DNA of 56,169 bases from Candidatus Aenigmatarchaeota archaeon (lineage in GTDB: Archaea > Aenigmatarchaeota > Aenigmatarchaeia > CG10238-14), in the NCBI GenBank assembly GCA_018920365.1, contig JAHLMM010000003.1, forward strand, positions 1 through 56,169, written 5' to 3'. Made by a program: the position numbers and the translations under genes. Positions 18,038 to 49,200 of this stretch are shown in pieces (the stretch's first letter is position 1; each line of letters opens with the position of its first letter). A model generated the notes under the pieces. It was not told the origin of the DNA and made no database searches. It worked only from the letters and a program-made list of their open reading frames with translations.

Positions 18038-18400
18038 GTGAAATTAAATCCAAAAATATGGAAAAGACTTTTTGATTTTGCACCAGACATTTATTACATA
18101 CATGATGATAAAGGTACTTTTGTTTATGCTAACAGAATGGCTGAAAAAATCACTGGTTTATCGTCAAAAAAGTTGACATCAAAAAAATTCATAGAGTTAG
18201 GAATTTTCCCTGATTATGAGGTTGCAAAGATAGGTTGTCTTATCAAGTCTGTTTTGAATGGAAAGCAAATAGGCCCTGTTAATGTTGATGTAAAGAATAC
18301 CAAAACTGGAAAGATAACAACAGTTGAAGTTATTGCTAAAAGATGCTATTGTAACATTAATAAAAAATTTTGTCTTGGGGGTTGCGCGAGATGTTACTAA
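18038..18400 (+). CDS. PAS domain, N-terminal part of a frameshifted PAS-histidine kinase
   Basis: The GTG start directly abuts the stop of the coiled-coil gene. Residues 6-100 fit a PAS fold: LFDFAPDIYYIHDDKGTFVY, then the AN..A..ITG motif, and a beta strand VEVIAKRCYCNINKKF. After the run AAAAAATTTT (18362-18371) this frame gives CLGGCARCY and a stop. The next frame gives VLGVARDVTNKVNAEKKLK, the usual end of a PAS domain joined to a kinase. Removing one A from the run restores one protein of about 370 residues (18038-19151). I therefore read this as the front part of the following kinase gene; the break may be real or a sequence error. Confidence 0.72.
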   Translation: MKLNPKIWKRLFDFAPDIYYIHDDKGTFVYANRMAEKITGLSSKKLTSKKFIELGIFPDYEVAKIGCLIKSVLNGKQIGPVNVDVKNTKTGKITTVEVIAKRCYCNINKKFCLGGCARCY

Positions 18401-19151
18401 TAAAGTTAATGCAGAAAAAAAGTTAAAAGATTCTATAAGAAAATTAAAAGAATTAAATAAAGAAAAAAACATGTTTCTTTCGATTGCAGCGCATGAATTA
18501 AAAACACCAATGGCTGCCATAAAAGGTTTTACACAATTACTTAATAACGACGAATTAATTAAAGATAAAGAAAAAAGAAGTAAATATTTGAAAATAATTG
18601 AAAATGAAGTTGATAGACTGTCATTGCTTGTCACAGATTTACTTGATTTAACAAGAATAGATTTGGGAACTATTAAATTAATAATAGAAGATACAAATGT
18701 TTCTGAAATTTTGGACAGGGTTGAAAAAGAAATGCAGCAATTGGCTAAAGAGAAAAATTTACAGTTAAGTTATGAATGCAAAAAAGAGATAAAATTAAAA
18801 ACAGACAAAGAAAAGCTTTACGAAATATTAATTAATCTTGTAAGTAATGCAATAAAATATACAGAAAAAGGTTTTGTCAAGATTGTTGCCGAAAAAGAAG
18901 GGAAACTGATCAAATTTTCTGTAATTGATACAGGAATAGGCATAGACAAAAAATATCGTAAGAAAATATTTGAAAGGTTTTTCCAAATAGATCCAACATA
19001 TACAAGAGAAAACAAAGGCTATGGGTTGGGATTATCTGTTTGCAAAGAACTTGTTAACAAAATGGGAGGAAAAATATGGTTTGATAGCGAAGTTGGCAAA
19101 GGCACAACTTTTTATTTCACCTTACCAATAAATAGTAGAGTGAAAAGATGA
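18324..19151 (+). CDS. Sensor histidine kinase, C-terminal part of a frameshifted gene
   Basis: All the boxes of a HisKA/HATPase kinase are present: H box IAAHELKTP (His about residue 57 of this open frame), N box NLVSNAIKYTEKG, G1 DTGIGID, F box FERFFQID and G2 GYGLGLSV. It autophosphorylates the histidine with ATP and passes the phosphate to a receiver. It has no membrane segment, so it is cytoplasmic. The nominal ATG at 18324 lies inside the PAS coding region and is unlikely to be the true start; see the PAS entry for the +1 shift at 18362-18371. It overlaps the next gene by ATGA. The CheY-like protein at 20225 is the nearest candidate partner. Confidence 0.82.
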   Translation: MKLLLKDAIVTLIKNFVLGVARDVTNKVNAEKKLKDSIRKLKELNKEKNMFLSIAAHELKTPMAAIKGFTQLLNNDELIKDKEKRSKYLKIIENEVDRLSLLVTDLLDLTRIDLGTIKLIIEDTNVSEILDRVEKEMQQLAKEKNLQLSYECKKEIKLKTDKEKLYEILINLVSNAIKYTEKGFVKIVAEKEGKLIKFSVIDTGIGIDKKYRKKIFERFFQIDPTYTRENKGYGLGLSVCKELVNKMGGKIWFDSEVGKGTTFYFTLPINSRVKR

Positions 19152-30170: not shown

Positions 30171-30605
30171 ATGAAATCTTTATTTAGAAGCATATCTTCA
30201 ATGATATTGATCAATATATTGATTATACTATCAACAATAACTTTACATGAACTAGGTCATGCTTTATCAGGGAAATTATTAGGATGTGCTCAAGCAAAAG
30301 CTGTTATTTATGATACAGAATCGGCAAATCCTTACACAGAATTGGTTTGTTATGATAAAGTTGATAAGATGTATTTGTCAGGGTTAGCATTAACAACACT
30401 TTTTGGTATATCATTTTTGACCTTTGATGACAAGCCTAACAGATATCTATCAATAGTCATCATAGGATTTGGAATTTTTTTGTCATCTTTAGATGTATTT
30501 GACCTCACAGGATACAATTTTTTCAAGTATTTTTTCATGATTTTTGGATTGATAAGTTTTATTATAGGACAAATTCTATATGGGTTGGAAAAATCCTTAG
30601 AGTAA
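30171..30605 (+). CDS. M50-like membrane metalloprotease homologue
   Basis: This 144-residue protein has about four membrane helices. The first contains TLHELGHALSG, the zinc-binding HExxH (H26, E27, H30) in a membrane helix as in M50/site-2 type proteases. A later LDVFDLTG in a hydrophobic stretch could supply the third ligand. It is short for M50 and may be a minimal relative. An inverted repeat overlaps its promoter. It ends convergent with the next gene with a nine-base overlap. Confidence 0.65.
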   Translation: MKSLFRSISSMILINILIILSTITLHELGHALSGKLLGCAQAKAVIYDTESANPYTELVCYDKVDKMYLSGLALTTLFGISFLTFDDKPNRYLSIVIIGFGIFLSSLDVFDLTGYNFFKYFFMIFGLISFIIGQILYGLEKSLE

Positions 30606-30999: not shown

Positions 31000-31093
31000 T
31001 AAATATAATATCAAAGTAAAATTAAACGATTTTCTGTAAAAATGCAAATCTTAAATTAAATTAACGACAAATATATTTCAATTGGTGAATATT

Positions 31094-31858
31094 TTGACTA
31101 GGGTAATAGGGGTAGTTTCTGGAAAAGGTGGTGTAGGCAAAACAACACTTGTTTCTAATTTAGGTGCAGCATTAGCATCAGTGTTTAAGATAAATGTTAC
31201 AATTGTTGATTGTAATATAACCACATCCCATCTAGGATTATATTTGGGCATGTATTATTCCCCTGTTACAATAAACAAAGTTTTAACAGGCGAAGAACCA
31301 ATAGAAAATTCAATGTATGAGCATTTTACAGGCATGAAAATAATACCTGCTTCTCTTTCTCTGAAAGATCTATCAGGCGTGGATATGTTTGCATTGAAAA
31401 ACGCGATAAAAAATTTGTCAGGTAAAACAGACATTGTAATATTAGATTCTGCTCCAGGACTTGGTAGAGAAGCACTTTCTGCTATAAGAGCTTGCGATGA
31501 AGTTATTTTTGTAACTACACCATTTGTACCAGCTGTGATGGATATAGTAAAAATGAAGAGATTGATAGATGAATTAAATGTTAAAACAAATGGTATAGTT
31601 TTAAACATGGTTAAAAGAGAAAAATATGAATTGACAAAAGATGAAGTTGAAAAATTAGCAGAATTGCCTGTTATATCAATAATACCAGAAGATAAAAACG
31701 TTCCGAGAAGTTTGTCTGCAAAAGTACCTACTGTTGTTTTATATCCAAACTCGCCTGCTTCTAGGGAAATGAAATCATTGGCAGCAATGCTTATAGGAGA
31801 GTATTATGAAAAAACAGATCCATTCACAAGCATAATAAACAGGCTGAAATTCTGGTAA
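31094..31858 (+). CDS. MinD/ParA-type ATPase
   Basis: The deviant Walker A is KGGVGKTT with the signature lysine (residues 11-18 from TTG 31094). It is followed by VDCNITTSHLGLYLG (switch I region) and VILDSAPGLG (switch II/Walker B). The C-terminus SIINRLKFW may be a short amphipathic membrane-targeting helix as in MinD. I choose TTG 31094 because GGTGA lies five bases before it; an upstream TTG at 31082 would add four residues. These ATPases dimerise with ATP and position partners on membranes or DNA. It heads a run with three coiled-coil genes on the same strand. Confidence 0.87.
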   Translation: MTRVIGVVSGKGGVGKTTLVSNLGAALASVFKINVTIVDCNITTSHLGLYLGMYYSPVTINKVLTGEEPIENSMYEHFTGMKIIPASLSLKDLSGVDMFALKNAIKNLSGKTDIVILDSAPGLGREALSAIRACDEVIFVTTPFVPAVMDIVKMKRLIDELNVKTNGIVLNMVKREKYELTKDEVEKLAELPVISIIPEDKNVPRSLSAKVPTVVLYPNSPASREMKSLAAMLIGEYYEKTDPFTSIINRLKFW

Positions 31859-31917
31859 AACCTCATTAAATATTTATTTCAAGATATCAAAATTAGTTTT
31901 AAGTATTAGGTGTAACA

Positions 31918-33171
31918 ATGTCTAAAAAAGCTACTCAAGCAGAGCCGCAACAAAAAACAGAAACAGAAGAGCAATTAAAGAAAAAAGTTGATAGTCTTGT
32001 TGATATAATTGAAGAGTTATCAAGCAATGTTGATAAGAACGGGCTACCTGAAGTTGAAAATTTAATAGACACTAAATTGAAAGAAATGAATGAAAAATTT
32101 GAGCTGAAATTTCAAGATATAAAAACAGTTCTTGATAATATAGAAAAAAAAGCAGGTAGAGGCAAAACAAAAGAAGAAATATCAAGTTTGGTTGATGAGT
32201 TCAAAAAAACATTGGAACCAAGATTAAACACAATAGAGGATAAATTAAAAGCATTAGACACACTTGAAACTATGAATGAAAACAAGGACGATAAAAAAGA
32301 AAAACAGCCAAATCAGAATTTGCAGCCAGGTCAGAATTATGAGATTGAATCAATAAAGAGAAATGTCTCTGAAATAAACCAATCTCTATCATCATTAAAA
32401 GATCAAATGGACACTATAAGAAACGGTGTAAAGGCTCAAGGGTTGCTTGATTCTTCTGATATTCAGAAATTAGAACATATTTTATCATCGCTTGATGAAA
32501 TGATTCCTCAAAAAAATGTTATAGACAATTTCAGAATAACTTTCAGAGAAATCAATGATTTGAGAAATAAAATCAACGAATTCAAATCCGATATGCAGAG
32601 AGTCTTTGAAAAACAAAAAGAATATTATGATGAAATAGATTCTAGAATAGAAACTCTTGTAAAGTTTTTGAATGCTGTTATTGAGGAGAGAGACAGAAAC
32701 TACAATGAATTAAGCAAGACAACTTCTGATACATATGTAAAGTCATTAAATCTGGAGAAATTGTCTCAAAATTTATATTCAGAGATGAGGGAAATAAAAG
32801 AATCTTTGAGAAGACAAAATGAAAAAATAAAGGAGCTTGAAGATACAACAAGAATGCTGGTTAAGTTTTCTGAAAAGGAATTCAAAGAGATCAACGACAA
32901 TATAAGGAGATCTGCTCAAGAAAATAGTAGAAATTTCAAGGATATTTATGCTCATGTTGATAAATTGAACAGTTCAATGAATGGTAGCATTTCTAACATG
33001 AGTAAGAAAATTGATGAACAAATGAAATTGTTGGATAAAACAATTTATGAAGGGTTAGCAAAGAATAATGAGCTAATAAAAATAGTTGCAGAAGAGAAAA
33101 AAGGATTGGAAAAGGCAATTGATTATAGAAAGCAAAAAATAGTTAATATATTAAAGGAGTTGAGGAAGTAA
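31918..33171 (+). CDS. Long coiled-coil protein 1 of the MinD cluster
   Basis: This 417-residue protein is hydrophilic throughout with heptad-like repeats across about residues 18-415. Low-complexity K/E/Q segments lie near the N-terminus (KKATQAEPQQKTETEEQ) and near 118-140. It has no signal peptide, membrane helix or nucleotide motif, so it should be cytoplasmic. It begins 59 bases after the MinD-like gene with an AGGTG site, and its stop overlaps the next start (TAATG). It could be a filament or scaffold; that role is inference. Confidence 0.75.
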   Translation: MSKKATQAEPQQKTETEEQLKKKVDSLVDIIEELSSNVDKNGLPEVENLIDTKLKEMNEKFELKFQDIKTVLDNIEKKAGRGKTKEEISSLVDEFKKTLEPRLNTIEDKLKALDTLETMNENKDDKKEKQPNQNLQPGQNYEIESIKRNVSEINQSLSSLKDQMDTIRNGVKAQGLLDSSDIQKLEHILSSLDEMIPQKNVIDNFRITFREINDLRNKINEFKSDMQRVFEKQKEYYDEIDSRIETLVKFLNAVIEERDRNYNELSKTTSDTYVKSLNLEKLSQNLYSEMREIKESLRRQNEKIKELEDTTRMLVKFSEKEFKEINDNIRRSAQENSRNFKDIYAHVDKLNSSMNGSISNMSKKIDEQMKLLDKTIYEGLAKNNELIKIVAEEKKGLEKAIDYRKQKIVNILKELRK

Positions 33172-35225
33172 TGGACGACCTTGACATTTTAAGCAGCGCT
33201 TTGATTGAGTTAAAGAAAAAAATAGATGATCAGAACAAGGTAATAGAAAAACTGAATTTAGAAAAGCTAGATTTGTTAGAAAAATATAATTATTTAGTAC
33301 AAAAAATTAACGACATTTCTTTAAAACAAAAAGAGAGTGAGAAGTATAACGACAATTTAAACAAAGATTTAGAAAAGTACAGAAAATTGCTGAATGATGT
33401 AGAAAAACTTATTGACATGAAATTTAGCGATCTTTCAAAGAAGATAGACGCAGAAAAGATCAAAGAAAAAATCAAAGATTTAGAAGATCTAAAAGACACA
33501 GACAAGAAAATAACTGATATAGCAAATTTTCAGAAACTATTGGAGAAGAAAATAGAAAATAATTATGCTTTAATTAAAGATTTTGAAAAGAACGTTCAAT
33601 CAATAATAAAACAAGAAGATAAAAAACAAAATTCTAAAGCATCAGAAATAGCAAAAGAATATTTTGATAAATTAACTCAAAATCTTTCTGAATTAAAGAG
33701 CGACTTGAAAGATCAAAAATCACAATTATCTCAAGTTTTGAAGGAAAATGAAAAATTGAAACAAATGAATTCAACAAGATTCGAAGCTTTAATGAAAACA
33801 GATATGGCATTAAATCAGATTTTAAAGAAATATGAAAACTATATTTTAGAGCTTGATAAAAAAGTTGATGATAAAATAAAAATAATAAACGATCATATAA
33901 AATCTTACGAGACTAATTTAAACAAAGTAATTGAAGATGAAAAAGATCAAAACAATATATTAAAGTCAAACATAGAGAAGATAAGTCAAGAGATAAAAGA
34001 TCTGAAATCTAAGCTCAAGCAAGGTAAAGATATAGAAGAAAATTATATCAACAAATTAAAAAGCGATTTAGAAAATAAAATCAAACTCGACATTTCCCAG
34101 ATCAAGAATGATATAAACGATTTGTCATCAAAAATAAAGCAGAGCCAATCATCCCAAGATGACTATATCAACAAATTAAAAAGCGATTTAGAAAATAAAA
34201 TCAAACTCGACATTTCTAGTTTAAAGGAGAACATGATTACTGAGATTTCTAATGAGAAAAATGATATTTCAAATAATTTGGATAAAATAAAATTACTAGA
34301 AAAAAAATATTATGATATTGAAAAATATTATAAAACATTAAACGAAGAGATTGCAACTTCACATAAAAAGCTTATGGATGAAGCTAGAAAAATTTCAAAG
34401 AAAGAAATAGAATCGTCAACAGAATCACTTTCAAATGAAAATAAAATTATAAACCAGAAACTTAAACAAATGGAGATAAGTTTCAATTTAATGGTAAAAG
34501 ATTCTAATAATTTTTATGATTCAATGAAAAAAGATATTAATTATATAAGAGATTTTGTTTTTTCTGTAGACAATTCTGTTAAAGACGAAATTGAAAAGAG
34601 ATTAATTGTTCAGGATAAATTAAGCGATTTGGCTTCAAACTTCAGCAGACTTATGGATGATATAGATAATTTTAAACTTAATGTTGAAGATAGAATAAGA
34701 AAAAATATTGATGAAATATCTTCTTTGGAAAAATCAATTTCGAAAAATCAAAAAGAACTTTATAACTATGTTAATTCGGAACAAACAAAACTGTTCGACT
34801 TTACAGATAAAAAATTCAAAGAAATTAGTAAGAAAATTGATGATTTGAATAAAGAAAGAAATTTAAAAGAAGAGAAGAGAATAGAGAAATTGAACATGTT
34901 GTTAAAAGAATTATACCAGGCAAAATCGTCAATTGAAACAAAAATTGATGTACTTTCATCTTACATTAACAAATTCAATGAAATTAAGAACTCATTTATG
35001 AAGGAAATTTCATCTGAAACAAGACATATCGTTAAAGATATTGAAAGTAAACAGAAGATTCATGATAATAAAATACTTTTGGCAGATAGAGATATAAAAG
35101 AAATGGAGAAGAGAATTGATAAATTGGAGAGAACTATATTAGAACTTTCTAAACAAGTAGAGATATGGAAAGAGAGATATAAACTTCAGCTTGGTAGAAT
35201 AGCAGAAGAAGTTGATTTAGAATGA
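33171..35225 (+). CDS. Long coiled-coil protein 2 of the MinD cluster
   Basis: This 684-residue, almost wholly helical coiled coil is rich in K, E, D, S, I and L. An internal 40-residue segment is tandemly duplicated (YINKLKSDLENKIKLDIS occurs twice; DNA at 34044-34096 and 34164-34216). It has no SMC-type Walker motifs and no membrane helix. Its start overlaps the previous stop by one base and its stop overlaps the next start by ATGA, so the three coiled coils are made together, probably in fixed proportion. Confidence 0.75.
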   Translation: MDDLDILSSALIELKKKIDDQNKVIEKLNLEKLDLLEKYNYLVQKINDISLKQKESEKYNDNLNKDLEKYRKLLNDVEKLIDMKFSDLSKKIDAEKIKEKIKDLEDLKDTDKKITDIANFQKLLEKKIENNYALIKDFEKNVQSIIKQEDKKQNSKASEIAKEYFDKLTQNLSELKSDLKDQKSQLSQVLKENEKLKQMNSTRFEALMKTDMALNQILKKYENYILELDKKVDDKIKIINDHIKSYETNLNKVIEDEKDQNNILKSNIEKISQEIKDLKSKLKQGKDIEENYINKLKSDLENKIKLDISQIKNDINDLSSKIKQSQSSQDDYINKLKSDLENKIKLDISSLKENMITEISNEKNDISNNLDKIKLLEKKYYDIEKYYKTLNEEIATSHKKLMDEARKISKKEIESSTESLSNENKIINQKLKQMEISFNLMVKDSNNFYDSMKKDINYIRDFVFSVDNSVKDEIEKRLIVQDKLSDLASNFSRLMDDIDNFKLNVEDRIRKNIDEISSLEKSISKNQKELYNYVNSEQTKLFDFTDKKFKEISKKIDDLNKERNLKEEKRIEKLNMLLKELYQAKSSIETKIDVLSSYINKFNEIKNSFMKEISSETRHIVKDIESKQKIHDNKILLADRDIKEMEKRIDKLERTILELSKQVEIWKERYKLQLGRIAEEVDLE
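34044..34216 (+). repeat. 120-base tandem duplication inside a coiled-coil gene
   Basis: A 53-base stretch (tatatcaacaaattaaaaag onward) is identical at 34044-34096 and 34164-34216, offset exactly 120 bases, which is 40 codons. The in-frame period suggests recent lengthening of the coiled coil by whole helical turns. Confidence 0.85.
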
Positions 35226-36040
35226 ATTTTGTAAACAAAACAGTTAAGGGTATTAATAAAATAAAAAAAGAGAGAGACGAATGGATGAAAAAATATCAGG
35301 ATTTAGTTAACCATTATGCTACTTCAATACAAACTGCAATTAACGAGGCTAAGAATGCAGAAAATATTGTAAAAGATGATAAAAAAGAACATGAAAAAAT
35401 CCAACAAAGATTGGATGAAATATCGTCGTTTGTTGAAGATTTTTATAAAACAGCAAGCAAGAAGATTGAACAAATAGAAAAATTTGACAAGGAATTGGAT
35501 TATAGCAAAAAAGAAATATTTTCAAAACTTGAAACGCAGGTAAAGGTAAATGAAGATATGCATTATGATATACGTCTTTTAAAGGAAAGAATAAAAAAAA
35601 TTGAAGAAATCCAGGATAGACAGGAAAAACTAATAAAGGAAATGAATGACTCCATAAAAGAATTCAAGAATTATGTTGTTTTACACATAAACTCTGCGAA
35701 TATAGAGTATGAAAAAAGGTTTGAAAAGTTTAAGGAAAGATATGAGGATTCTATGCAAATTTCCAATGAATTGAGGAGAGATGCAAAAAAATTAAACAGT
35801 TTTGCACAGATTCTTGAGAATTTTCACAAAAGAATAAAGAATATAGAATTAAAAATAGACAAAATTGAAAATATGTTGTCTGCAAATGAGAAGAGAATAG
35901 ATATTGTTAGGAGAGAAAAGGAAGTTATAAATGATAGGATATATGATGTGAAGGAAGATATAAGTTTAAAACTGAAAGAAATAGAAGATCTTGTTTATAT
36001 GTTAGAAGAAGATATAAAAGAAATAAAAAAATCTAGATAA
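35222..36040 (+). CDS. Long coiled-coil protein 3 of the MinD cluster
   Basis: This 272-residue coiled-coil protein starts MNFVNKTVKGINKIKKERDE and is helical to the end (IEDLVYMLEEDIKEIKKSR). It has no membrane helix or signal. The ATGA overlap ties it to the 684-residue gene. It ends eight bases into the end of the minus-strand surface gene at 36033. Function unknown; the operon suggests a partner of the other two coiled coils and the MinD-like ATPase. Confidence 0.75.
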   Translation: MNFVNKTVKGINKIKKERDEWMKKYQDLVNHYATSIQTAINEAKNAENIVKDDKKEHEKIQQRLDEISSFVEDFYKTASKKIEQIEKFDKELDYSKKEIFSKLETQVKVNEDMHYDIRLLKERIKKIEEIQDRQEKLIKEMNDSIKEFKNYVVLHINSANIEYEKRFEKFKERYEDSMQISNELRRDAKKLNSFAQILENFHKRIKNIELKIDKIENMLSANEKRIDIVRREKEVINDRIYDVKEDISLKLKEIEDLVYMLEEDIKEIKKSR

Positions 36041-37265
36041 AGGACCATCTTTTTATTGGAATCAACTCTCTTTCTTTTCTTTTTTTCTTATAAATTATAA
36101 ACAGCAGCAAAGCTAACGCAGTTGTTATAAAAAATATTATAAGGTAATTGTAGCTGACAGTCGGCAATTGAATTTTTTTTGAGTATTTTTCTGCTTTTGA
36201 AATTTCTATTATAGTTTTTTCTATATTATCTTTTACTATGTCTATCTGTTCAATGCATTCTTTAAACCAACCTAACTTGTAATAGTCTTTAGCATCATCA
36301 ATCGATTTTTTAGCTTCATCTAAATATTGTTTTGCTATTGTAACATTCTTTTCTTTCTCTATTATATTGATTTCATTTTCAAGTTTTTTAATTAAATCAG
36401 AATAATAATTCAAAAGTTCTTTTGCCTTTTCTTTCAAACTTAAAACATTTACTCTTACATTTATAGTATCATTGAACTTGATTTGGTTTGAGACAGCTTT
36501 TACATCAACTTTATATTCACCTTCTGGTAACCACAAAGGAGCTTTGATTATTCCAACAAATATTGATGTTTCGCCTGGTTTTAGAATATCCACTTTTTCC
36601 GGATAAATTATTCTTGCATCCAAATCTTTTGATATCAAAATAGCATATATACCAGTTAAATCAGAATCACCAAAATTGCTTATTTTTATAGGAACAACAT
36701 ACTCTTGATCTTGTGTTATGTTTATGTTTTTTTGAAATTCTACATCTATTTTATATCCAGGGCTGAACTGGGATATGCCTGATAATTGATTGACAGGAAA
36801 TTTCTCAGGTATTGTTTCAGGTGCTCTTGTTACAAGAACACTAAAGTTATGTTGCTTGTATTTATCAGCAAAATATGTTTTTGCTATTATAAAATGAACT
36901 CCAGGACTGTTCATAATCCATGAAAATATAAAAACATTCCTGCTACCAGGATTAACATAGCTGTATTTTGTCTGGTTGAATTTTGCTATGTAAAATCCAT
37001 CTTCGTTCAAAACATCTATTTCCTGCCATATATCTAATGTTGTACTCCCACAATTTACGATCTCCAAAGTCATATTTATTTGACTTCTTTGCATTACTAT
37101 TTGTTCTGGCGATTTTATTACATACACACAAACGTCATCATATGCACTATTGCTTAAAAATATCTCGACAACATCTGATATTAAACCAGTGATTTTATTA
37201 AAGAAAATTTTAACTAATGCGACTAGAACTATTAAAATTATCAAAAAAACTATTCTTTTCATCAT
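36033..37265 (-). CDS. Membrane protein with two extracellular beta domains, coiled coil and C-terminal anchor
   Basis: This 410-residue protein has an N-terminal hydrophobic helix (residues 4-22), a CARDB/Ig-like domain (about 45-145), a second beta domain (about 165-275, with ISNFGDSDLTGIYAILISKD and LPEGEYKVDVKAVS), a coiled-coil segment (about 278-365), a membrane helix (about 375-395) and a basic tail KKKRKERELIPIKR. Topology suggests an extracellular sensor or stalk base. It is third in a minus-strand run with two other surface genes. Confidence 0.72.
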   Translation of the reverse strand: MMKRIVFLIILIVLVALVKIFFNKITGLISDVVEIFLSNSAYDDVCVYVIKSPEQIVMQRSQINMTLEIVNCGSTTLDIWQEIDVLNEDGFYIAKFNQTKYSYVNPGSRNVFIFSWIMNSPGVHFIIAKTYFADKYKQHNFSVLVTRAPETIPEKFPVNQLSGISQFSPGYKIDVEFQKNINITQDQEYVVPIKISNFGDSDLTGIYAILISKDLDARIIYPEKVDILKPGETSIFVGIIKAPLWLPEGEYKVDVKAVSNQIKFNDTINVRVNVLSLKEKAKELLNYYSDLIKKLENEINIIEKEKNVTIAKQYLDEAKKSIDDAKDYYKLGWFKECIEQIDIVKDNIEKTIIEISKAEKYSKKIQLPTVSYNYLIIFFITTALALLLFIIYKKKRKERELIPIKRWSFI

Positions 37266-37298: not shown

Positions 37299-37838
37299 TT
37301 ATTTAAAGACTATAAATGCGGCAATTATTATAGTTATTATTATCAAAGTAGTTATAACTATGTCTCTATCAATTTTTAACACACTTTCATTATCTTCATT
37401 GACTATGTTTGAAGGAACTTTGCCGATGACATTAATTTTTATATTGTTTATTCTTTCCTCTGAAACAGATATACCATTTTTATCGTTTTGAGTTGTTATT
37501 TTAATCTTTACACTATAATTTCCATATTTAATGTTTTCATTCAATTTTAATGCGACTACTACATTACAAGCATGTTTGTAATCATTGTTTATATATACAT
37601 AACTTTTGCAATTTTCATTAATTTGAAAAACACTCTGATTTAATACAACATATATATCTTCAGGCTTTTCATATACATCAACATGAATTTTTGAATTTTC
37701 TTCACCCCAAATTAAAAATTTATAATATATAGACTCGCCAGGATTGGCTTCAAAATAGTTGCTATCTTCAAGTATTCCTAAAGCGCTCACTTCTGAAAAT
37801 ATAAGTATAGTGATTAATGCGAAAATTTTCAACATCAT
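37299..37838 (-). CDS. Secreted beta-domain protein with C-terminal anchor
   Basis: This 179-residue protein has a signal peptide (MMLKIFALITILIFSEVSA), one CARDB/NEW3-like beta domain (about residues 22-140) with two Cys, a short linker and a C-terminal membrane helix (about 157-178). It overlaps the stop of the upstream 766-residue gene by ATGA, so it is co-translated with it. It probably sits on the cell surface; no partner is known. Confidence 0.72.
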   Translation of the reverse strand: MMLKIFALITILIFSEVSALGILEDSNYFEANPGESIYYKFLIWGEENSKIHVDVYEKPEDIYVVLNQSVFQINENCKSYVYINNDYKHACNVVVALKLNENIKYGNYSVKIKITTQNDKNGISVSEERINNIKINVIGKVPSNIVNEDNESVLKIDRDIVITTLIIITIIIAAFIVFK

Positions 37839-40135
37839 TCACCTGTTTCATTTGCCATTATTGTTATATTACCAAAATATCTTCCAGCATAAACGATTGG
37901 TGAGTCAATCCAGTAAAATGTTGTAATTATATCATTTTCTTTCACGTTTTTCTTGAGTAGGCTAAAATCATTTTTCATTCTAAATGAATTTGAATAATTC
38001 CTTTCTAAGCTCCATGAAATGTTTTCTGCTTTTATTATACTAGATCCATAAATATCAGTACTTTTTATCCATACATCGCTGTTACAGCTACCACTTGACA
38101 ATGTTATATTATATATAGCATCTGAATTGCCTAAAGCTTCATTTCCAAAAGTATTTGGAAAAATTTCACCAAACTCTATTTCATGCCAACTTAAATATAT
38201 ATCAATTGCACATTCATATATTGTCAAGCTCACATTTTCTGTATGATTTTTTAATTCACTTGACATAAATAAAACACCTATTGAGATACTTTCTTGAATA
38301 TTACCAGTAGCATTCACAACCCATGTAATATTACAAAAATCATCTTTTGCAAGACTATTACAGTATTTTGTTGAATGAGGAGATGGTTCATTAATAAAGA
38401 GGGGCGAGTCACCATAAATCTCGCTTATAGGTGTATCTGGATAATTGGAAGTTACGTTGTACATTATTGTTGCATTGATATCACCACAATTATCTTCTCT
38501 GCAAAAAACAGTAGCATTTACAAAAAAAGTTTTGTTTTGAGCCACATTAAAATTTCCAGGAGGTTTTACTAATTTAACCTCAAGATAAGCCGATGATGTT
38601 GTATTGAATTCAAATGGACTTAAAACAGCACTGTTATTCCAATTACCCTTTTTGTCGCTTGCGTTTACAAACCATTTTATATTGCAATTTTTTGTTTCAT
38701 TTATAATAGCAGTAAAATTGGACCATCCGTTTGAATTGAAACTATTCAAAGGAGTTACATTTACAAAGTATCCTGTACAATTGTCTAACCAGCCTTGCCA
38801 TTGTCCATCTGTTAAATTTATGTTGTCCTGCCATAATAAAGAAAATAAAACGGCTTTACCTGCTATTGTGGAATTTGTCTGGTTTAAATAATATCTAGGA
38901 GGTGTAAAGTCTTCTGAAAAATTTGCCAATAAAAAAATACTATCAACATATAGAAACGCATTGGGCATACCGTCGTTATCCTCTCCTCTAATTCTTATTA
39001 ATATGTTATTAAACTGCGTCACGTTGATGTGAGATATGTTGCAATAGCTTTTTGTTGGTAATGAAGATGCAATTAAACTTTGACAATTTATCCATTCACT
39101 TCCATTCCAATAATCAATATTTATATTGTTAGCACCAAAATCTACATCTGTGTACCACTCTATTACTGCAAGAGATTCTTTAATTTCTTTATCTATATTA
39201 ATATCATTATCCCACAAATTTACTTCTATCCATCCAAAAGGGAATGTCATTATATCTATTGATTCAAAGATATTATCAGTTTTATTTATTCTTTCAACAT
39301 CACAATCACCATCAGAATCTGTACAGTATATTGGTGTTCTCCTAAATTGAATGTAAAAACTCATCATATTAGTTGAATTTTGCTTTCCAGTAGTGTCATT
39401 AAAGTGAATTCTCCATGACACAAAGCCAGATGTTAAATTGGAAAAAATGAAACTTGCATTTGTCCATGTATTTCCAACACCATTTAAATTAATGAAGCTG
39501 TAATTTTGCCATAAGCCACTGTGATTTGTTTCAAGCCATGCATGCGAAAGGCCTATATCGTCAAATAATTCTGCACTTAAATTTATACTTTGATCAGAGT
39601 ATATGTAATCACTGCTAGAAAATTGACTTCTCCATAAAGGCGGTGATGAATAATTCAATTTAAGTACAATACTATCTACATATAAAAATGCATTTGGCAT
39701 TCCATCTAGATCATTTCCTCTAATCCTTGTTTTTAAATTAAGTATTTTTTGTTTTTCAAGTGATGTTATGTTGCATTCATTCTCTTGTATAATATTTGTT
39801 TCTGTCATGCTTTGTGTGCAACTTATCCATTCACTTCCATTCCAATAATCAATATATATGTTGCTGGCGCCATAACCAACATCACTGTACCATGTTACCA
39901 GTATAACACCGTCATCTATTTCTTCTTGATCTTCAAGACTGATATTAAAATCAGCTTGTATAAAACCAAATGGATATGTAAGTATATCAACAGCTTCAAA
40001 ACTACTGTCACTTTCGTTAATCAATGCTATATTACAATCGCCATCTGAATCAATGCAGCTATAAGGTGAAAACGCTTTTACACAACTTAAGCTTAATAAA
40101 AAGGCCAAAAATACATAATTGGTTAATTTTGACAT
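37835..40135 (-). CDS. Secreted multi-domain surface protein with duplicated DSDG module
   Basis: This 766-residue protein has a signal peptide (MSKLTNYVFLAFLLSLSCVKA). Two copies of a 130-140 residue module follow (about 25-165 and 270-412): DSDGDC..., PFG, W-Y-(S/T)DV, IDYWNGSEWI, C-N-I, RIRG-x-D-x-DGMPNAFLYVDSI. Each is followed by an Ig-like domain; further beta domains make up the C-terminal half. The end has no clear membrane helix. It has many N-x-S/T sequons. It heads the minus-strand surface operon and diverges from the 3,339-residue gene. The module recurs alone in the 164-residue protein at 50250. Confidence 0.75.
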   Translation of the reverse strand: MSKLTNYVFLAFLLSLSCVKAFSPYSCIDSDGDCNIALINESDSSFEAVDILTYPFGFIQADFNISLEDQEEIDDGVILVTWYSDVGYGASNIYIDYWNGSEWISCTQSMTETNIIQENECNITSLEKQKILNLKTRIRGNDLDGMPNAFLYVDSIVLKLNYSSPPLWRSQFSSSDYIYSDQSINLSAELFDDIGLSHAWLETNHSGLWQNYSFINLNGVGNTWTNASFIFSNLTSGFVSWRIHFNDTTGKQNSTNMMSFYIQFRRTPIYCTDSDGDCDVERINKTDNIFESIDIMTFPFGWIEVNLWDNDINIDKEIKESLAVIEWYTDVDFGANNINIDYWNGSEWINCQSLIASSLPTKSYCNISHINVTQFNNILIRIRGEDNDGMPNAFLYVDSIFLLANFSEDFTPPRYYLNQTNSTIAGKAVLFSLLWQDNINLTDGQWQGWLDNCTGYFVNVTPLNSFNSNGWSNFTAIINETKNCNIKWFVNASDKKGNWNNSAVLSPFEFNTTSSAYLEVKLVKPPGNFNVAQNKTFFVNATVFCREDNCGDINATIMYNVTSNYPDTPISEIYGDSPLFINEPSPHSTKYCNSLAKDDFCNITWVVNATGNIQESISIGVLFMSSELKNHTENVSLTIYECAIDIYLSWHEIEFGEIFPNTFGNEALGNSDAIYNITLSSGSCNSDVWIKSTDIYGSSIIKAENISWSLERNYSNSFRMKNDFSLLKKNVKENDIITTFYWIDSPIVYAGRYFGNITIMANETGE
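39088..39855 (-). repeat. Pair of 33-base exact repeats marking the duplicated DSDG module
   Basis: The sequence beginning ttatccattcacttccattc is identical over 33 bases at 39088-39120 and 39823-39855, encoding the IDYWNGSEWI part of each module copy. Flanking DNA has diverged more, which points to conservation or local gene conversion of this segment. Confidence 0.8.
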
Positions 40136-40225: not shown

Positions 40226-43200
40226 ATGAATTTAAAAAAGATGGTTACTATAATTCTGTTTTTAATACCCATATCTTACTCAATAAGCATAATAGGCTTT
40301 GATGATACGGAAAACTCATTTTTTATTGAAGCAGATAATATAAGAAATGCTGTTTTTGAAATTGACGGATATAACTACACCGCTGGCAAAATAGACAATC
40401 GTTATTATGTTTTTTTGAACGACTTGAAAGGTGATAAAAACTATAGCTGGTATATAGAAGACGTTAATAAAAGCTTTAAGATAGATGGACTCTACAACGA
40501 CACTAAAATTAAAAAGTTTAGAGAAAGAGGGATTAAAGCAGATTTTTCCGAAGGTGTGTATAGATTATCTATAGATAAATCAACCAAAAAAGTGGAAATA
40601 GAGTCTGAAGAAGTTACAGGAGATGAAAATATAGAGGTATTCGATAATTTTAATGTTAATGATTTTGCCTCTATAAATAAAATTCAAGTAAGGGACATGA
40701 TTTGGGTTGAGGCAAACGATTTTGAAAATTGCAATGGAAAGATTTATCTCCCAAGCGTATATAACAAAGTCTTTTATTGCGAAGGTGATATGAATAATCC
40801 TTATTGTTATTTTATTGACAAATGCGGTGTAGAACCTTGCTTTAAAATAGAAAATTCATCAACAGTGATTTATCTTGACCATTTTTCTGGAGGCGGCGGA
40901 GGCGATCCTGTCTTGCAATTCAATCAGACTCAAACAGCAAATTTAACAGGAAATGCATCAACATTGAATCAAGAAGCAATAGATTCATATCTAAATTTTA
41001 ACGATGGATTGACATGGGATGTCAGCGAATCATCTTATGAAAAAAAATGGATATCTGAAAATCAACTTTCAAGCACTTTGCAGTTAAAACAAATATCCAG
41101 AGAGCAAAAAACAGTTGAATATTATATTTATCAGGGCATGACACAGCAAGCAGCAAACACAGATTTGAATGGTACCTTTACAATTTACATTCCTGAAAAA
41201 AATCCTCAGATAAAAAGTGCTTATGTTGAAGTTAGAAACATTGTTTATAACACACAGATCACTGCTGGGCAGACGATAATAATTTGGAATGGAACTCAAA
41301 ATACAACTCTTTTAACAACAAACACAGGATTTGCTGCAACAGGAGAGCAAATGGTTTATGTAATAACCGCAAATGCTACACCTGCTTTGGATTTTATAAG
41401 CTCTTCAGGTCAGTATACATTTACTTTGTATACAAGATTAAATGCCATAAGACAAGGAGAATCTGCAAAACTTGTTTTAACATATGAATATGATTCTGAC
41501 TCACCAAGACAAATTAAGACAGTCAAATTTTTTGTAGGTCAATTAACATCACCTTTAGCTGTCGGATCATCAACAAATTTTCAAATATCGCCATTAAACT
41601 TGCCTGAAAAGAATGTTCAAATAAGGGATAGTTTTTTTGAGACTTTTATTCATTTGCAGCCCGGTGGGACTGTTGACGAAGGTATAAACATTAACTTGGA
41701 TGGGGTTAACGCTATATCAGGCACACCAATAGACAATGCTGGTGCAACAACTATTGATTATATGTTCTTATACAAAAACATCTTTGATACAAATACTGCG
41801 CACACATTCAATTTTCAGCCAACAGCGGGATATGCTGTTCATGCTGTAGGTACAGAGTTGACATTAACATATGAATATGATGCAGATTCGCCATATCAAC
41901 TTAAAACAGTGAAATATCTTATGGGTCAAAACCCTAATATTTATACAACAGCAAACACTTTTAGTTTTTCAAGAATAATAGACATACCAAATTCCTCAAG
42001 TATAATTTCAGCCTACAACAAAGTAAGGTTTTCCATAGCATATGGAAGTGGCACGGGCACAGCAGCTTATACAACAACTATTGGCGTCAATTCTTCTGTT
42101 CAAGGCCAGAGTCAGCCACAAGCTTCATACACATTGGGCTTGAGGGATGAGCAAGTGAGTGTATCAACTATTTTGTATAATGCGTCTGGTTTGTACAATA
42201 TTGCTGATGGATCAAATGTTATATGCACAATATATAGTAGCGCAACAAACACAAGCTTTTATACTTCATCCAAAGGTTGTGAGTTGACATTGACTTATTT
42301 GCACTCTTTGCCAAGCAGAATAAAAACAGTGAGTTATTTTGGAGATCAAACTTTCAAGAGTGCTTTGAACTTGTCTGCATTGCTAAACTTTTCATTTTAT
42401 TTACCTGAAGAAAATTCTAAAATCAAACAATCATACATTGACATAAAAGGATTTACAGGATATACAACAGCTGCAAATATTTTGTTAAACTCTAGCATAA
42501 ATTTCCCAGGGAGAGTGATTCAATCATGCTATTTTAGAAACACAGGAGAAAATAGATATGACACTTGTTGGGATGATGTTACCGACAATGTGACTTTATC
42601 AGGAAACTATCAAATAATAGCTGGTTCTGGTACAGCAGCCACAGTAACAAGATGGTATAGTGCTTTGACATATTTCACATATAATTATACAGGATCTTTA
42701 GAGAAAAACACAACTTGGCATCAATATAGTTTTTCAGGTGAAGATTATAGCTCTGCAAGTTCTGTTTCAGCCATAGTTGGTATATCTTTTTATAATCCAT
42801 CTGCTTCAAATTCAACTTTCAACAGCAATAACAGACCTGACATAGAAGTTTCATTTTGGAATGGTACAGATTTTACAACCAGCAGCTACTGCAACTTATA
42901 TCAGTTAGGCGATGCTCCATATCAAGGCGATTACAATTGCACAATAAAATCATTAGATGTTTCTATATTAGACGCTTGGAGATTTTCTTCAAACAGAACA
43001 ATTAGAATAAGAGGTGTATGGTTTGATGACTCTGATTATTATTCAGATGAAATAAACATATCATCTATATATGTTGAAATAAACAGGACATTCTATAGGC
43101 TTTCCATAGAGCATAATTCTTCTTTATCTTTTCCTGGCTCGCTTATAAGCATAAACGCGTCAATAAACTTTTCTTCATCAACAGGTGGTATTTACAACAT

Positions 43201-46200
43201 GTCAATTTATAATTTTGCTGAAAGTAGGTGGGATTCTAGTTTTTGCCAGAATATTTCAGCATCACAAAACAACTTCTATGTGATTTCATGCAATGTCACT
43301 TCTAATCCAAACTATTATGTTTCTAGCGGAATAGCTAGAATAAGGATTGAATCCACTTCAGATGACGTTTACAGCACATTGAGGGAAGATTATGTTCAGT
43401 TTTATACAAATTCCATGGAAACAATGCCACCTCAAATATTTTTACATTACCCTGAAAATCAAGCTAGATTTTCTATTCAAGACATTGAATTCAATTTTAC
43501 TGTTAGTGATGATTATACACAACAAATGACATGTGATTTATATTTGGATGGCGAAAACACTAGCACCACACAAGCAAACAACGACACTGTTTCTTCTTTT
43601 TCTTTGACAAACATACCTTTTGGAAATCACACATGGTTTGTTAATTGTAGTGATGGTGAGGTTTACAACTCAAGCGAGCAAAGATTTTTCAATATAGGAA
43701 CGCCGCCATATGTTAAAATAGAGCATCCTATTTTTGAAAGTTTTGATGAGCACTACACAGTTCCTATAATTGCAAACATAACAGACCCAGATGGAATAAA
43801 ATCAGCCTATGCAAAAATTCTGACACCAAACCAATCTTTAATATTCATAGATTTTACAAAAACTCAGCAGAATGATCAATTCAGCAACAACATTGAGTGG
43901 AAGAAAGAAGGCGATAACTTTGACGGTAGAGAGTGTGTTTTTAACATAAACCAGGATTATGCTGGTAAAGCCTTTACAGGATTAAGTGGCAGTGGCCAGC
44001 CAAACACACAAATCAACGGATTTTTGTGCTCAGCCATTTCAAAATCAGTTTTATACAGAGATTTTGACATCAATATTTCATTTGAGGTTTTGCAAGAGCA
44101 AGGAAATGATTACGCAATCAACTTTCAGATAATGGAAAATCCGTCTTCATTGTATGCATCAAAGTTGGCATTCATTTCTTTGTCAAAATGGACTGGCTAT
44201 GATAGAGTTTATGAAGTATACGTAAATGATGGAAGCACAGAAGGATATTTATCTTCAAGACCGACAAATGATACAGAAGGTAAATTCAGAATAAAAAGAA
44301 CAGGCAACAATTTTGAATTTTACACGTGGAATTCAAGCTCGTGGGTTTTGGAAGCATCTTCAACATTAAATTTTCTTGAGACTGTCTACATAGCATTTGA
44401 ATCAGAAACATCATATCCGTCTTGGGGAGTTTTAAACGCCACATGGGATGATTTTGGTGTATTGTCTTCAAACTTTTCTGTTGCTTTTTTCAATTCAACA
44501 GAGATAAATGGTGAATATGAAGCAAATGTTGTTGCAATAGACATTTATGACGCTGTAAATGATACTGAAAAAACAAACTTTACAATTCAGTTTTCAAACG
44601 ACCGACCTTCAGTACCGTTTATTATAAAACCAACTCCAAATGAGATAGTTAGCGGTGTATATGAGATAATTTGGTCTAATGTTTTTGATTATGAAAATGA
44701 CAATCTTAGATATAATATTACATTATTAAATTCTGATTATACATATAATCAAACAATAGTTGAAAATTACGGCAATTCCACAACAACTTCATATTTATGG
44801 AATACTTTGCCTTTTGCAGAAGGAAATTATTCTATTAGAATAGTCGTTTATGAAAATGAAACTTTAGAAATGTACAACAACAGCTTCACTCTGCCAGGAA
44901 TTTTTGTAATAAACAAACCTCCGTCTGTTATAATAAATTCGCCAAAAAATGATAGTTATTGCGGCCAATGTGTCCCAATATCAATAAACGCCACTGATCC
45001 TAATGGCATAGATAAAGCTATAGCTGAAATAACTTTGCCTAATGGCACTGTAGAGAATTTATATTTAGATTATGCAATTTCAGACGATAGTTTTGATGAG
45101 GGAAATAACTGGTTTTTGGAACAAACTATTGATGAACAGCAAAACTGTACTTCATATGTTGATGGAAAGGCGTTTTTATCAATCCAAGGAAACGGAACAT
45201 CTTTAACAAATACTGTTTGTACATTAATCTCTAAAAAAGGTGTTGATGGAGATTTTGATGTTAGCGTTGATTTCAACATAACAAATTATACAAATAACGA
45301 TAGTGCTGTAAATTTTTTAATTTTGCCGAGAAACACGTCGTCAGAATCACCATTTTACATGTTTATTTCTTTATCAGAATGGTCAGGTATGGGTAGGAAT
45401 TATGAAGTTTATGTTAGCAATGGAACATTTAGCGATTATATTTCAACAAGGCCGACAAATGATACAGAAGGTAAATTCAGAATAAAAAGAACAGGCAATA
45501 ATTTTGAATTTTATACGTGGAATTCAAGCTCATGGCTGTTAGAATCATCAGGAGAGTTTGCTTTTCCAAGAATTGTTTTTATAGGACTCGAAGTTGAGAA
45601 TGCTTACCCTATGTGGGGCAGCATAAATGCAACTTTTGACAATTTTATGATTCAAAGAAATGATTTTCTTTTTAATATTTATCATGCTGACTTAGAGGGC
45701 TTGCACAATATAACATTTTTCGTTAATGATACTTTTGGTGGAATAAATAATACCGAAAAAACAAACTTTACATCTTTGCACATAAATATTCCACCTACCC
45801 AACCATTTATTTTGTATCCATCTCCAGGAACGATTGTAGGCAATACAATAACAATAGTGTGGTCAAACGTTTTTGACTTTAACAACAATACTTTAAGATA
45901 CAATATAACTTTGCTTAATTTAGACTATTCTGTTAATGAAACATTGGTGACAGAATATGGAGATGCTTCAATCGCATATTATTCGTGGAATACTCATGGA
46001 GTAAAAGATGGAAAATATCTTCTGAAAATAGATGTTTATGAAAACGAAACCCAGCAAAAATTAAGCAACAACTATACAATGTCAGATTACTTTGTGATAG
46101 ATAACACAAAACCTTTGGTGTTTTTCAATTATCCAACACCACAAAACAATACAATAATCAACAAAACTTTTATTGAGATTAATGTTACGGCTATAGACGA

Positions 46201-49200
46201 AAACATGAATTACATAGACGTTTTTGTTTTCAATCAAAGTGATGATATGATATACGACGATGAAATGTATGGAAAAGATGCGTTTTTCAATGTGACTAAT
46301 TTAGATGAGCAAAATTACAGTTTTTATTTAATCGCATATGATAAATCTGTAAACTCAAATTCAACTGGATATTCAAATGTCGAAATAGATTTAACGCAAC
46401 CATTTATTTCAATTTCAAGCCCACTCAATCAAACATACAATTATCATTTGATTTTACTTAACATAACATCTCAAGACAAGAATTTGAACAAGACATTTTA
46501 CAAATGGAATTCTTCTGGATTTTTCGAATACAGCGGAGAAGCTCAAATAAAATTTGACGAAGGCGTCAATTTTGTCGAAGCTATAAGTTATGATCAATCA
46601 GGGAATTCCAATAAGACAAATGTTACATTCACTGTTGATACTTTGCCGCCGTATATAGTATTTCACAACCCTACACCTTTAAACAATACAATAGTCAACA
46701 AAAACTGGGTATATGTAAATCTAAGCTCTGATGCAACAGATGTATATATGGAGTGGAATGGTTTCAATGAAAGCATGAACTTTGATAATTTTTGGTATAT
46801 AAACAAGACAAATTTATTAGACGGAATATATTATTACAGAATATTTTCAAAAGATCAGTTTGAAAATTGGAATTACACAGGATTCTATTATGTTTTTATA
46901 GACACTAAATCTCCTCAGTGGTATGACAACAAGTCATCGCCTTTGTCGTTTGTTCAATATAATCAAAGAAATTATATTTTCAATGTTACATGGCAAGATG
47001 AGAATCAAATATCTAATGTATTTATAGAAAGCAATTTCACAGGTAATCTTGAAAACAATAGTGTCAATAGCAATATGAATGAGTATTATTATACTATCAA
47101 TGACTTGAAACCTGGATATTATGTATGGAGATTTTATGCGAATGACACTGCGAATAATTGGAATAAGACTGATCAGTGGGTTTATGTTGTTGAAAAAAAC
47201 AATACAGAAATAAAACTTTACATAAACGGTAGCGAATCTGACATAACTTTACCTTTGAATTCTTTTGTCAACATAACCTCGTACATCAGCATAAATGAAT
47301 TGATAAAGATATATTCAAATCTTACAGGTTGGCAGACACAAGAAGGCGTAAGTTTAATTGAAAATATAACCCAACTGTCAGAAAAAAGAAAATATAATAT
47401 TACTGCTGAATTTCTTGGAAATGAAAACTACACATATTCATCAAAAACGTTGTTTTTAACAGTAGAAGATTTTTCATATCCATACTATACATATTTAATT
47501 CAAAACAACAGTTGGGTTGGTGTTGGTCATTCAATATTATTAGCTGCAAATTGGTCAGACAATTATGATTTGGATTATGCGTGGCTTGAAACAAATGAGA
47601 CAGGTTTTTGGAAGGCACGTTCATATATTGACATAAACCTGACAAGTGATCAAACATGGTCAAATTTTTCATGGTCAAATTCATCCATTCCAGCAGGAAC
47701 TGTCATAGCGTGGAGAATATATGCAAATGACACAAGTGGTAATGAAAATTATACAAATGAAATGACATTTGCAGTCAATGCTAGCGAGATATGGAAGTTT
47801 TTGACAAACGGCTTCATCTATTCTTCCCCGGCGATAGGCGATGTTGATGGTGACGGCAATATAGACGTTGTTTTTGCTTCTTATGATAGGAAATTATATT
47901 CATTAATTGGATATAATGGTACGAAACTGCTTGAATTCTTGACAAACAACAGCATAGCGTCATCGCCATCTTTGCTGGCAACTCAAGAATCTTACATGAA
48001 AATAATAACAGCAAGCTATGATGGAAATGTTTATGCAATTAACGGAAGTGATGGTAGCAAGCTGTGGAATTTCACTACGGGAGGTTTGATATTTTCATCC
48101 CCTGCAATATATGACATAAACAATGACAACGTACAAGAAATAATCATAGGCTCTTATGACAAGAACATATATGTCTTGAATTCAACAGATGGGCAAAAGA
48201 TATGGAATTACACAACCGGAGGCAGAATAATATCATCACCTTCTGTCGTCATCTTTAGCGGAGATGTATTAATAATAGTAGGATCACATGACGGAAAATT
48301 GTATGCATTTAATTCAACCGGCGATCTTTTGTGGCACTTTTCAACACAAGACAAGATTGAATCATCACCTGCTATAGATGATTTGGATGGAGATGGAAAT
48401 TATGAGATTGCTTTTGGTTCTTATGACAACAAAACATATCTTATCAATGCAACCAATGGACAGCTAATATGGAGTTATACCACAGGAAATTGGATAACAT
48501 CATCTCCTGTCATAGCAGACATTGCAGGTCATAAAAAAGTAATCATAGCTTCACACGATTCAAAAGTTTACAGCTTAAATTCAGACGGCACATTAAATTG
48601 GACTTTTACAGTTTCAACAGGAGGAAGAATACAATCATCACCATCAATAATTGATTTGAATCTTGACGGCGTAAATGACGTTTTGGTTGGCTGTTCTGAT
48701 TCAAGAATTTATGCGTTAAATGGATTGAATGGGAATGTTATTTGGAGTTATAAAGTGAACGCATATATCTTTTCATCACCAGCAATAGCTGACATCAATT
48801 CAGACGGCACAAATGATTTTTTATTCGGCTCTTTTGATAAATATCAATATTCTCTTGATCCGCCAACATGGTCTGTATTTGGTGGCAATGAAAGAAGGAC
48901 AAGAATATTTGACAATGCTGAACCAGAATTGATTCACTTTGAAATAGACAATGAAACCAACAGTGTTTATAGTTTGTGGAGAGAGAGATTTTCAAATCTT
49001 GATTACGCAATAATTTCTGAAAACTCAACAGGCTATAGCAACGAACATTTTGTAAAATTGAAAGGAACACATGATTGGGTTAATTTTACATTTTATTCAA
49101 AAGGTGTTTATTTTGATATCAAAGTATTTGACGAGTACAACAATAGCAATTTTATTCAAGGTTTCATAGAAGGCGAAGCTGATAAAAAACCACCTCAGTG

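Follow-up and report, generated by a model that had tools for sequence, protein, structure and literature searches.

The PomXYZ system of Myxococcus comprises a ParA/MinD-like ATPase and coiled-coil proteins that position FtsZ (PMC7993993). PomX forms a meshwork, and a basic N-terminal peptide on a coiled-coil partner activates the ATPase (PMC7993993, PMC13170346). Among archaea, the MinD paralogues MinD2 and MinD4 of Haloferax place surface machines (PMC11588486). The SPEARE proteins were introduced by Hamm 2019, where related cytoplasmic domains in Aenigmarchaeota were noted (PMC6642349), and for the giants SVXNc_0300 and BNXNv_0298 host binding and VirB4-driven secretion have been proposed (PMC10266531). 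We have analyzed a 56,169-bp contig (C13) from the 752-kb genome (G000) of an Aenigmatarchaeota archaeon, the whole of which is termed the window here. It carries a gene for a MinD ATPase followed by genes for three coiled-coil proteins, which we call ccA, ccB and ccC, and these four very probably belong to a SPEARE-type locus. The genes that carry the argument are as follows.

31094-31858, + strand: MinD ATPase, with predicted amphipathic tail
31918-33171, + strand: ccA, 417-aa coiled-coil protein
33171-35225, + strand: ccB, 684-aa coiled-coil protein
35222-36040, + strand: ccC, 272-aa coiled-coil protein with a basic, conserved N-terminal peptide, MNFVNKTVKGINKIKKERDEW
14-16597, + strand: c16, SPEARE-type giant surface protein of 5,527 aa, its 5' part lost at the start of the contig
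16643-18037, + strand: c8, 464-aa cytoplasmic coiled coil with SHOCT-like repeats (270 bits with the c8 hidden Markov model, HMM)

Judged by its sequence, the first of these is an archaeal-type MinD ATPase with a predicted membrane-type C-terminal amphipathic helix. The open reading frame (ORF) spans 31082-31858, and alignment with the orthologues places the start codon at TTG 31094. The protein scores 221.5 bits against the archaeal MinD model (NCBIfam TIGR01969), above the family cut-off of 201.75. It has a deviant Walker A motif SGKGGVGKTT with the signature lysine (KGGxGKTT), and this is conserved in the cassette-linked orthologues. The closest PDB entry is 1hyq, the MinD of A. fulgidus (E = 4.8e-46). 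The window protein shares fold family and archaeal subfamily with this and the other archaeal structures 1ion and 1g3q, but those are single proteins with no partner cassette. The original prediction, made from the DNA letters alone, had suspected an amphipathic tail. The C-terminal TDPFTSIINRL is indeed predicted to have the highest hydrophobic moment of any 11-mer in the protein (0.67, in the top 0.4%, compared with 0.55 for the membrane-targeting sequence of E. coli MinD on the same scale). Neither MinE nor MinC, the partners in the bacterial MinCDE system, was matched among the scanned neighboring proteins of the locus.

The succession of MinD and three coupled coiled-coil genes that was originally described is borne out by the ORF coordinates, the gene overlaps (TAATG for ccA/ccB and ATGA for ccB/ccC) and the coil scores. 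Scored with an approximate COILS-type matrix, the values of which are meaningful only relative to other proteins of the window, the fraction of residues above a threshold of 1.4 is 43% for ccA, 62% for ccB and 71% for ccC, and 0% for most other window proteins. The estimate of some 1,370 residues of coiled coil needs qualification: the three proteins total 1,373 residues, but only about 800 of these score as coil. None has a transmembrane (TM) segment, and Pfam scans of the three proteins revealed neither HEAT repeats, as in PomY, nor other domains. For ccA and ccC, AlphaFold2 predicts extended, all-helical structures. Comparison of ccB with solved structures gave one marginal coil match, to a chain named Moevan (E = 0.008).

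Amino acid composition blurs blastp comparison of entire coiled coils, and by eye the ends of these proteins are conserved but the rods are not. We therefore chose HMMs restricted to the termini, with heptad-block shuffles as controls. The models were built from the termini of members outside the window's genus, and tested on the proteins of that genus together with 4,000 shuffles of them. Each model matched the corresponding protein at the corresponding end and in register, mostly above all shuffle scores. The ccB N-terminal model gave 18-22 bits for the genus proteins at residues 1-58/59 (18.4 bits at residues 1-58 for the window ccB; best shuffle 14.2), and the ccC N-terminal model gave 14-16 bits from residue 5 (15.9 bits at residues 5-29 for the window ccC; best shuffle 8.3). 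With the ccB C-terminal model, one genus member reached 18.9 bits at that end (best shuffle 14.7), and the ccA C-terminal model scored 19.5 bits at residues 359-416 of the window ccA (best shuffle 15.7). In a three-way comparison within the genus, ccB is 70% identical over residues 1-30 and 43-53% identical close to its C-terminus, and identity drops to 0-10% along parts of the rod. The first 25 residues of ccC are conserved, with a net charge of +5. When its full length was the query, ccA matched proteins of the window's genus only, a result that taken alone would wrongly suggest a genus-restricted oddity; the terminal models extend its range. Moreover the window ccA matches a protein of family f30 by blastp (locus L048, E = 1.4e-8), and clustering groups it with proteins in the ccA position of other loci.

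MinD and the three rods are conserved across families and are not a local oddity. The neighborhood comparison in DPANN genomes that had been suggested as a check found the module in further Aenigmatarchaeota families, with its gene order retained. Homologues of ccA, ccB and ccC that match them at the exact termini occur in families of other orders, and the ccB N-terminal model matched 18 of 156 genomes of the phylum at E < 1e-10 and none of the genomes searched outside it. In loci fetched by MinD, two to four long coiled-coil genes follow MinD in most members of families f28 and f31, and in some of f30 they are close by. At every locus with readable flanks ccA adjoins ccB, and in one genome (G106) the three genes are still together and in order but distant from MinD. 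MinD relatives at 50-64% identity are present in other families. The coiled-coil-linked MinDs fall into two clades, one of 15 rows, of which 13 have the cassette nearby, and one of four from the window's genus, and the tree leaves the branching between these undecided.

By its domains and motifs the window ORF at 14-16597 is a SPEARE-type giant. Its C-terminal 465 aa, the part covered by the Pfam scan, match PF01935 (42 bits), PF05872 and PF02534. A TM segment at 5119-5137 of 5527 precedes the cytoplasmic HerA/VirB4-type ATPase domain, in which Walker A (GGTGSGKT) and Walker B (LMVYDE) are both intact. This is the plan of the described SPEARE giants, which have a huge ectodomain, a C-terminal TM segment and a cytoplasmic VirB4/TraG/HerA ATPase (PMC6642349, PMC10266531). 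The corresponding ORFs of sister species encode 11,249 and 11,262 aa. A model of the c16 tail (314 bits for the window protein) matched 55 genomes of Aenigmatarchaeota and 34 of other archaea, the longest ORF being of 12,145 aa. In three small genomes, each a single contig, c16-tail ORFs of 8,592-9,433 aa adjoin a second ATPase of ~620-680 aa and resemble the Nanohaloarchaeota giants SVXNc_0300 and BNXNv_0298 in ORF size and arrangement (PMC10266531). Outside the phylum, 17 of 20 loci have a c8-type gene after the giant (in two of the remaining three the contig ends there), and MinD lies beside c16-c8 in two genomes (loci L201 and L210).

The conserved unit is larger than the four genes first noticed. 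In f28 and f31 the gene order is c16-c8-c1-c3-MinD-c5-ccA-ccB-ccC, which is whole in five genomes (G105, G107, G108, G109 and G143, overlapping loci being joined); other copies end at contig edges. There c16 is a giant protein, at least 2.5-4.7 thousand aa long and ending in a HerA/VirB4 ATPase, and c1 is a second giant, a surface protein of ~2,000 aa with a stalk, a TM segment and a SHOCT-like tail. The coiled coil c8 shares the SHOCT-like motif of that tail, where 'SHOCT-like' is our reading by eye and Pfam made no call. Preceding MinD is c3 (~220 aa), which by eye resembles a winged helix-turn-helix (wHTH) protein and had no match in a Pfam scan. Following MinD is c5 (~90 aa), with one TM segment and a short coil, which occurs only with the cassette (10 strong matches). 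The window genome also encodes a c1 giant of 1,921 aa (G000:C5) and a c3 relative (G000:C18). An HMM search did not detect c5 there; every other part of the locus is present. A shorter c16-c8-(c1)-MinD set lacking ccA-C is found in f4, f7, f25 and a sister genus of f1.

Co-occurrence was assessed by tests that ignore shared ancestry. All 18 genomes that encode ccB have c3, as do 6 of the 138 others, among them the window genome with its unlinked copy (Fisher 8e-19). c16 is present in 15/18 compared with 40/138 (Fisher 1.3e-5), on the assumption that all 156 phylum genomes were included in the tail search. MinD lies within ~10 kb at 12 of 29 high-scoring c16 places, where about two would be expected, again with ancestry disregarded. 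The c1 stalk model was built from MinD-adjacent copies, which biases its high rate of MinD adjacency, and that rate was not used as a statistic. Gene content, gene order, homology, domain identities and co-occurrence were established computationally.

A number of observations weigh against assigning the rods and MinD to this locus, or against the role proposed for them below. Within the window's genus 13 kb with unrelated genes separates the c16-c8 pair from MinD, and the giant c1 and c3 are on contigs other than that of the MinD cassette. G106, 72% complete and in one contig, splits the set, with MinD-c3-c5 at one place and ccABC at another, and in this genome only a remnant of c1 and no c16 were detected. 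Members of genus g78 in f30 apparently lack ccC, and most SPEARE-type loci outside the phylum have no MinD nearby. The support for the ccA C-terminus is the weakest, with genus scores of 15.0 and 19.5 bits against 15.7 for the best shuffle. The AlphaFold2 models are of low confidence (mean predicted local distance difference test scores of 60 for ccA and 73 for ccC), and the neglect of ancestry in the co-occurrence tests counts on the same side.

The constant partners, the membrane-type MinD, the basic N-terminus of ccC and the end-conserved rods suggest a scaffold patterned by MinD. We propose that ATP-bound MinD dimers would associate with the membrane through the C-terminal amphipathic helix and recruit ccA, ccB and ccC. 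The rods, with conserved ends and middles of variable length, might join end to end to form a submembrane scaffold, which in other families could be pinned to the membrane by c5. A basic N-terminal peptide, for which that of ccC is the best candidate, may stimulate hydrolysis by MinD, so that the scaffold would move, or be restricted to a single place, which might be a pole. The scaffold might then hold the cytoplasmic parts of the giants (the HerA/VirB4 domain of c16 and the tail of giant c1) via the SHOCT-like c8, concentrating the host-contact device there. By analogy with PomXYZ and the MinDs of haloarchaea we infer the mechanism, with each interaction, the formation of filaments, the stimulation of the ATPase and the location. 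That the four proteins act by this mechanism as the cytoplasmic positioning or scaffold module of a SPEARE-type host-contact machine seems to us evenly balanced. A more specific form, that ccA-C co-assemble as a novel archaeal coiled-coil cytoskeletal scaffold, patterned by MinD and dedicated to placing and holding the giant host-contact and secretion machine of DPANN archaea at one site, is offered tentatively.

The original prediction spoke of an undescribed cytoskeletal or polar positioning system. A conserved, apparently undescribed positioning or scaffold system of MinD and coiled coils is the favored reading, but MinD with ccA-C is only a fragment, because the conserved unit also includes the giant with its ATPase, c8, the second giant, the wHTH-like c3 and the TM-coil protein c5; filaments and polarity would be properties of the proposed mechanism. 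The likeness to PomXYZ is the pairing of a ParA/MinD ATPase with coiled-coil proteins. However PomZ binds DNA where the window MinD has a predicted membrane-type tail, three rods and a SPEARE-type giant are present here, and sequence homology was not found between the systems. The conserved ccC peptide is a candidate counterpart of the activating peptide of PomXYZ. The proposal resembles the positioning of surface machines by MinD2 and MinD4 of Haloferax, but their cargo is different and no coiled-coil partner cassette is mentioned in that study (PMC11588486). The papers on SPEARE giants likewise make no mention of MinD or of ccA-C, c5 or c3 as partners (PMC6642349, PMC10266531). Unlike the giants, ccA-C, c5 and c3 are conserved in only part of the Aenigmatarchaeota.

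The alternative that survives best makes the rods a static mechanical anchor or spacer that serves the giants from the cytoplasm, with MinD serving assembly or turnover and not positioning. Rods with conserved ends and variable lengths would suit this, as would the TM-coil protein c5 and the SHOCT-like motifs of c8 and the giant c1 tail. Yet a MinD with an intact nucleotide-binding motif and a membrane tail is conserved along with the rods, and members of the MinD family generally position cargo. We therefore regard a static anchor as unlikely. MinD and c3 could instead be a partition pair (a ParA with a DNA-binding protein), with the coiled coils as a tie between the chromosome and the place in the membrane where the surface machine sits. 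Given that c3 is winged-helix-like, adjoins MinD in f28, f30 and f31 and accompanies ccB in all 18 of its genomes, this has some appeal. But the tail of MinD is of the membrane type, the DNA binding of c3 is putative in view of its lack of a Pfam match, and the window-genus c3 adjoins other giant surface-protein genes, which would suit a regulator; we consider a partition pair distinctly unlikely.

The cassette could also position the division site or pili, the surface-protein neighborhood being incidental. PomXYZ is a precedent (PMC7993993), and the window genome has three FtsZ/tubulin-family proteins and five T2SSE-type ATPases above cut-off. These genes are elsewhere, with none of either kind on C13 and those for T2SSE on C11, C12, C14 and C15. 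By contrast c16 and c8 share the contig of the cassette, and c1 and c3 recur beside it in other families. Moreover the MinDs of H. volcanii do not affect division (PMC11588486), and a role in division or pili is thus quite improbable. Finally, an SMC/ScpA condensin, a Rad50-like chromosome factor and SMC-type defence (Wadjet, Lamassu) were rejected as extremely improbable, since ccA-C match SMC, Rad50, JetC and LmuB models weakly, in coil regions only and far under the cut-offs (36 bits compared with 729 for SMC), and contain no ABC ATPase head. The original argument from the absence of SMC motifs holds, and the homology to SMC/ScpA or an archaellum component that was to refute an undescribed system found no support. 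No archaellum or pilus ATPase gene is on the window contig.

Further genes adjoin the cassette on the opposite strand.

36033-37265, - strand: c1-type membrane protein, 410 aa, with two TM segments (114 bits with the c1 stalk HMM, which includes its own sequence)
37299-37838, - strand: c7, 179-aa membrane-anchored secreted protein, its cluster found in six loci, usually beside c6 and MinD
37835-40135, - strand: c6, 766-aa secreted surface protein, its cluster found in six loci

The c1-type protein has an N-terminal TM segment, beta domains, a helical stalk and a C-terminal TM segment, and its gene is convergent with ccC. Its membership in the ccA-C module is uncertain. The three genes are the surface-protein cluster that had been named as the neighbor of the cassette. 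The cluster exists, but c6-c7-c1 is a separate recurrent module with its own MinD paralogue in other genera. The order MinD-c6-c7 occurs in L055, L058 and L067, and MinD is near a c6-c7-c1 module in L145, suggesting a second MinD-linked surface complex. We dropped the cluster as a partner of the cassette, for the conserved neighborhood points to the giant at 14-16597.

Several other genes were observed. A 144-aa membrane protein (30171-30605, + strand) with an HELGH motif (weakly Peptidase_M50-like) is conserved upstream of MinD in the window's genus, and a histidine kinase (18324-19151, + strand; HisKA and HATPase_c) lies just downstream of the giant and c8. A 3,339-aa secreted protein (40226-50245, + strand) has a PQQ/FG-GAP-type beta-propeller region (PF13570, PF13360, PF13517). 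Elsewhere in the genome, a second c16-type ATPase tail of a lower-scoring subtype (G000:C11:27359-27844, 221 bits) is part of a 2,211-aa ORF. At L136:3-7510 the c3 relative on C18 has as neighbors a coil-wHTH protein of 134 aa, a membrane protein whose N-terminus carries a wHTH, and a giant surface protein of 1,765 aa; L137-L139 are arranged similarly. In a c16-c8-c1-MinD locus outside the phylum, c1 and a second MinD are separated by an ORF of 452 aa (L201:8192-10330) that matches MinD and, weakly, c1.

Positioning by MinD/ParA proteins is already known, and the SPEARE giants themselves have been described. Our literature search found no description of the MinD-ccA-ccB-ccC cassette, and as partners of a MinD its proteins are apparently undescribed. 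DPANN archaea depend on hosts. The giant SPEARE-type proteins are a leading candidate for their contact device, and the papers cited above are silent on how these are held or placed within the cell. A cassette of MinD and three rods in the locus of the giant names genes with which the placement of the device can be addressed. If the proposal of a MinD-patterned scaffold is correct, host contact would join the cargoes of MinD/ParA proteins, and these coiled-coil proteins would join the short list of archaeal cell-organizing components.

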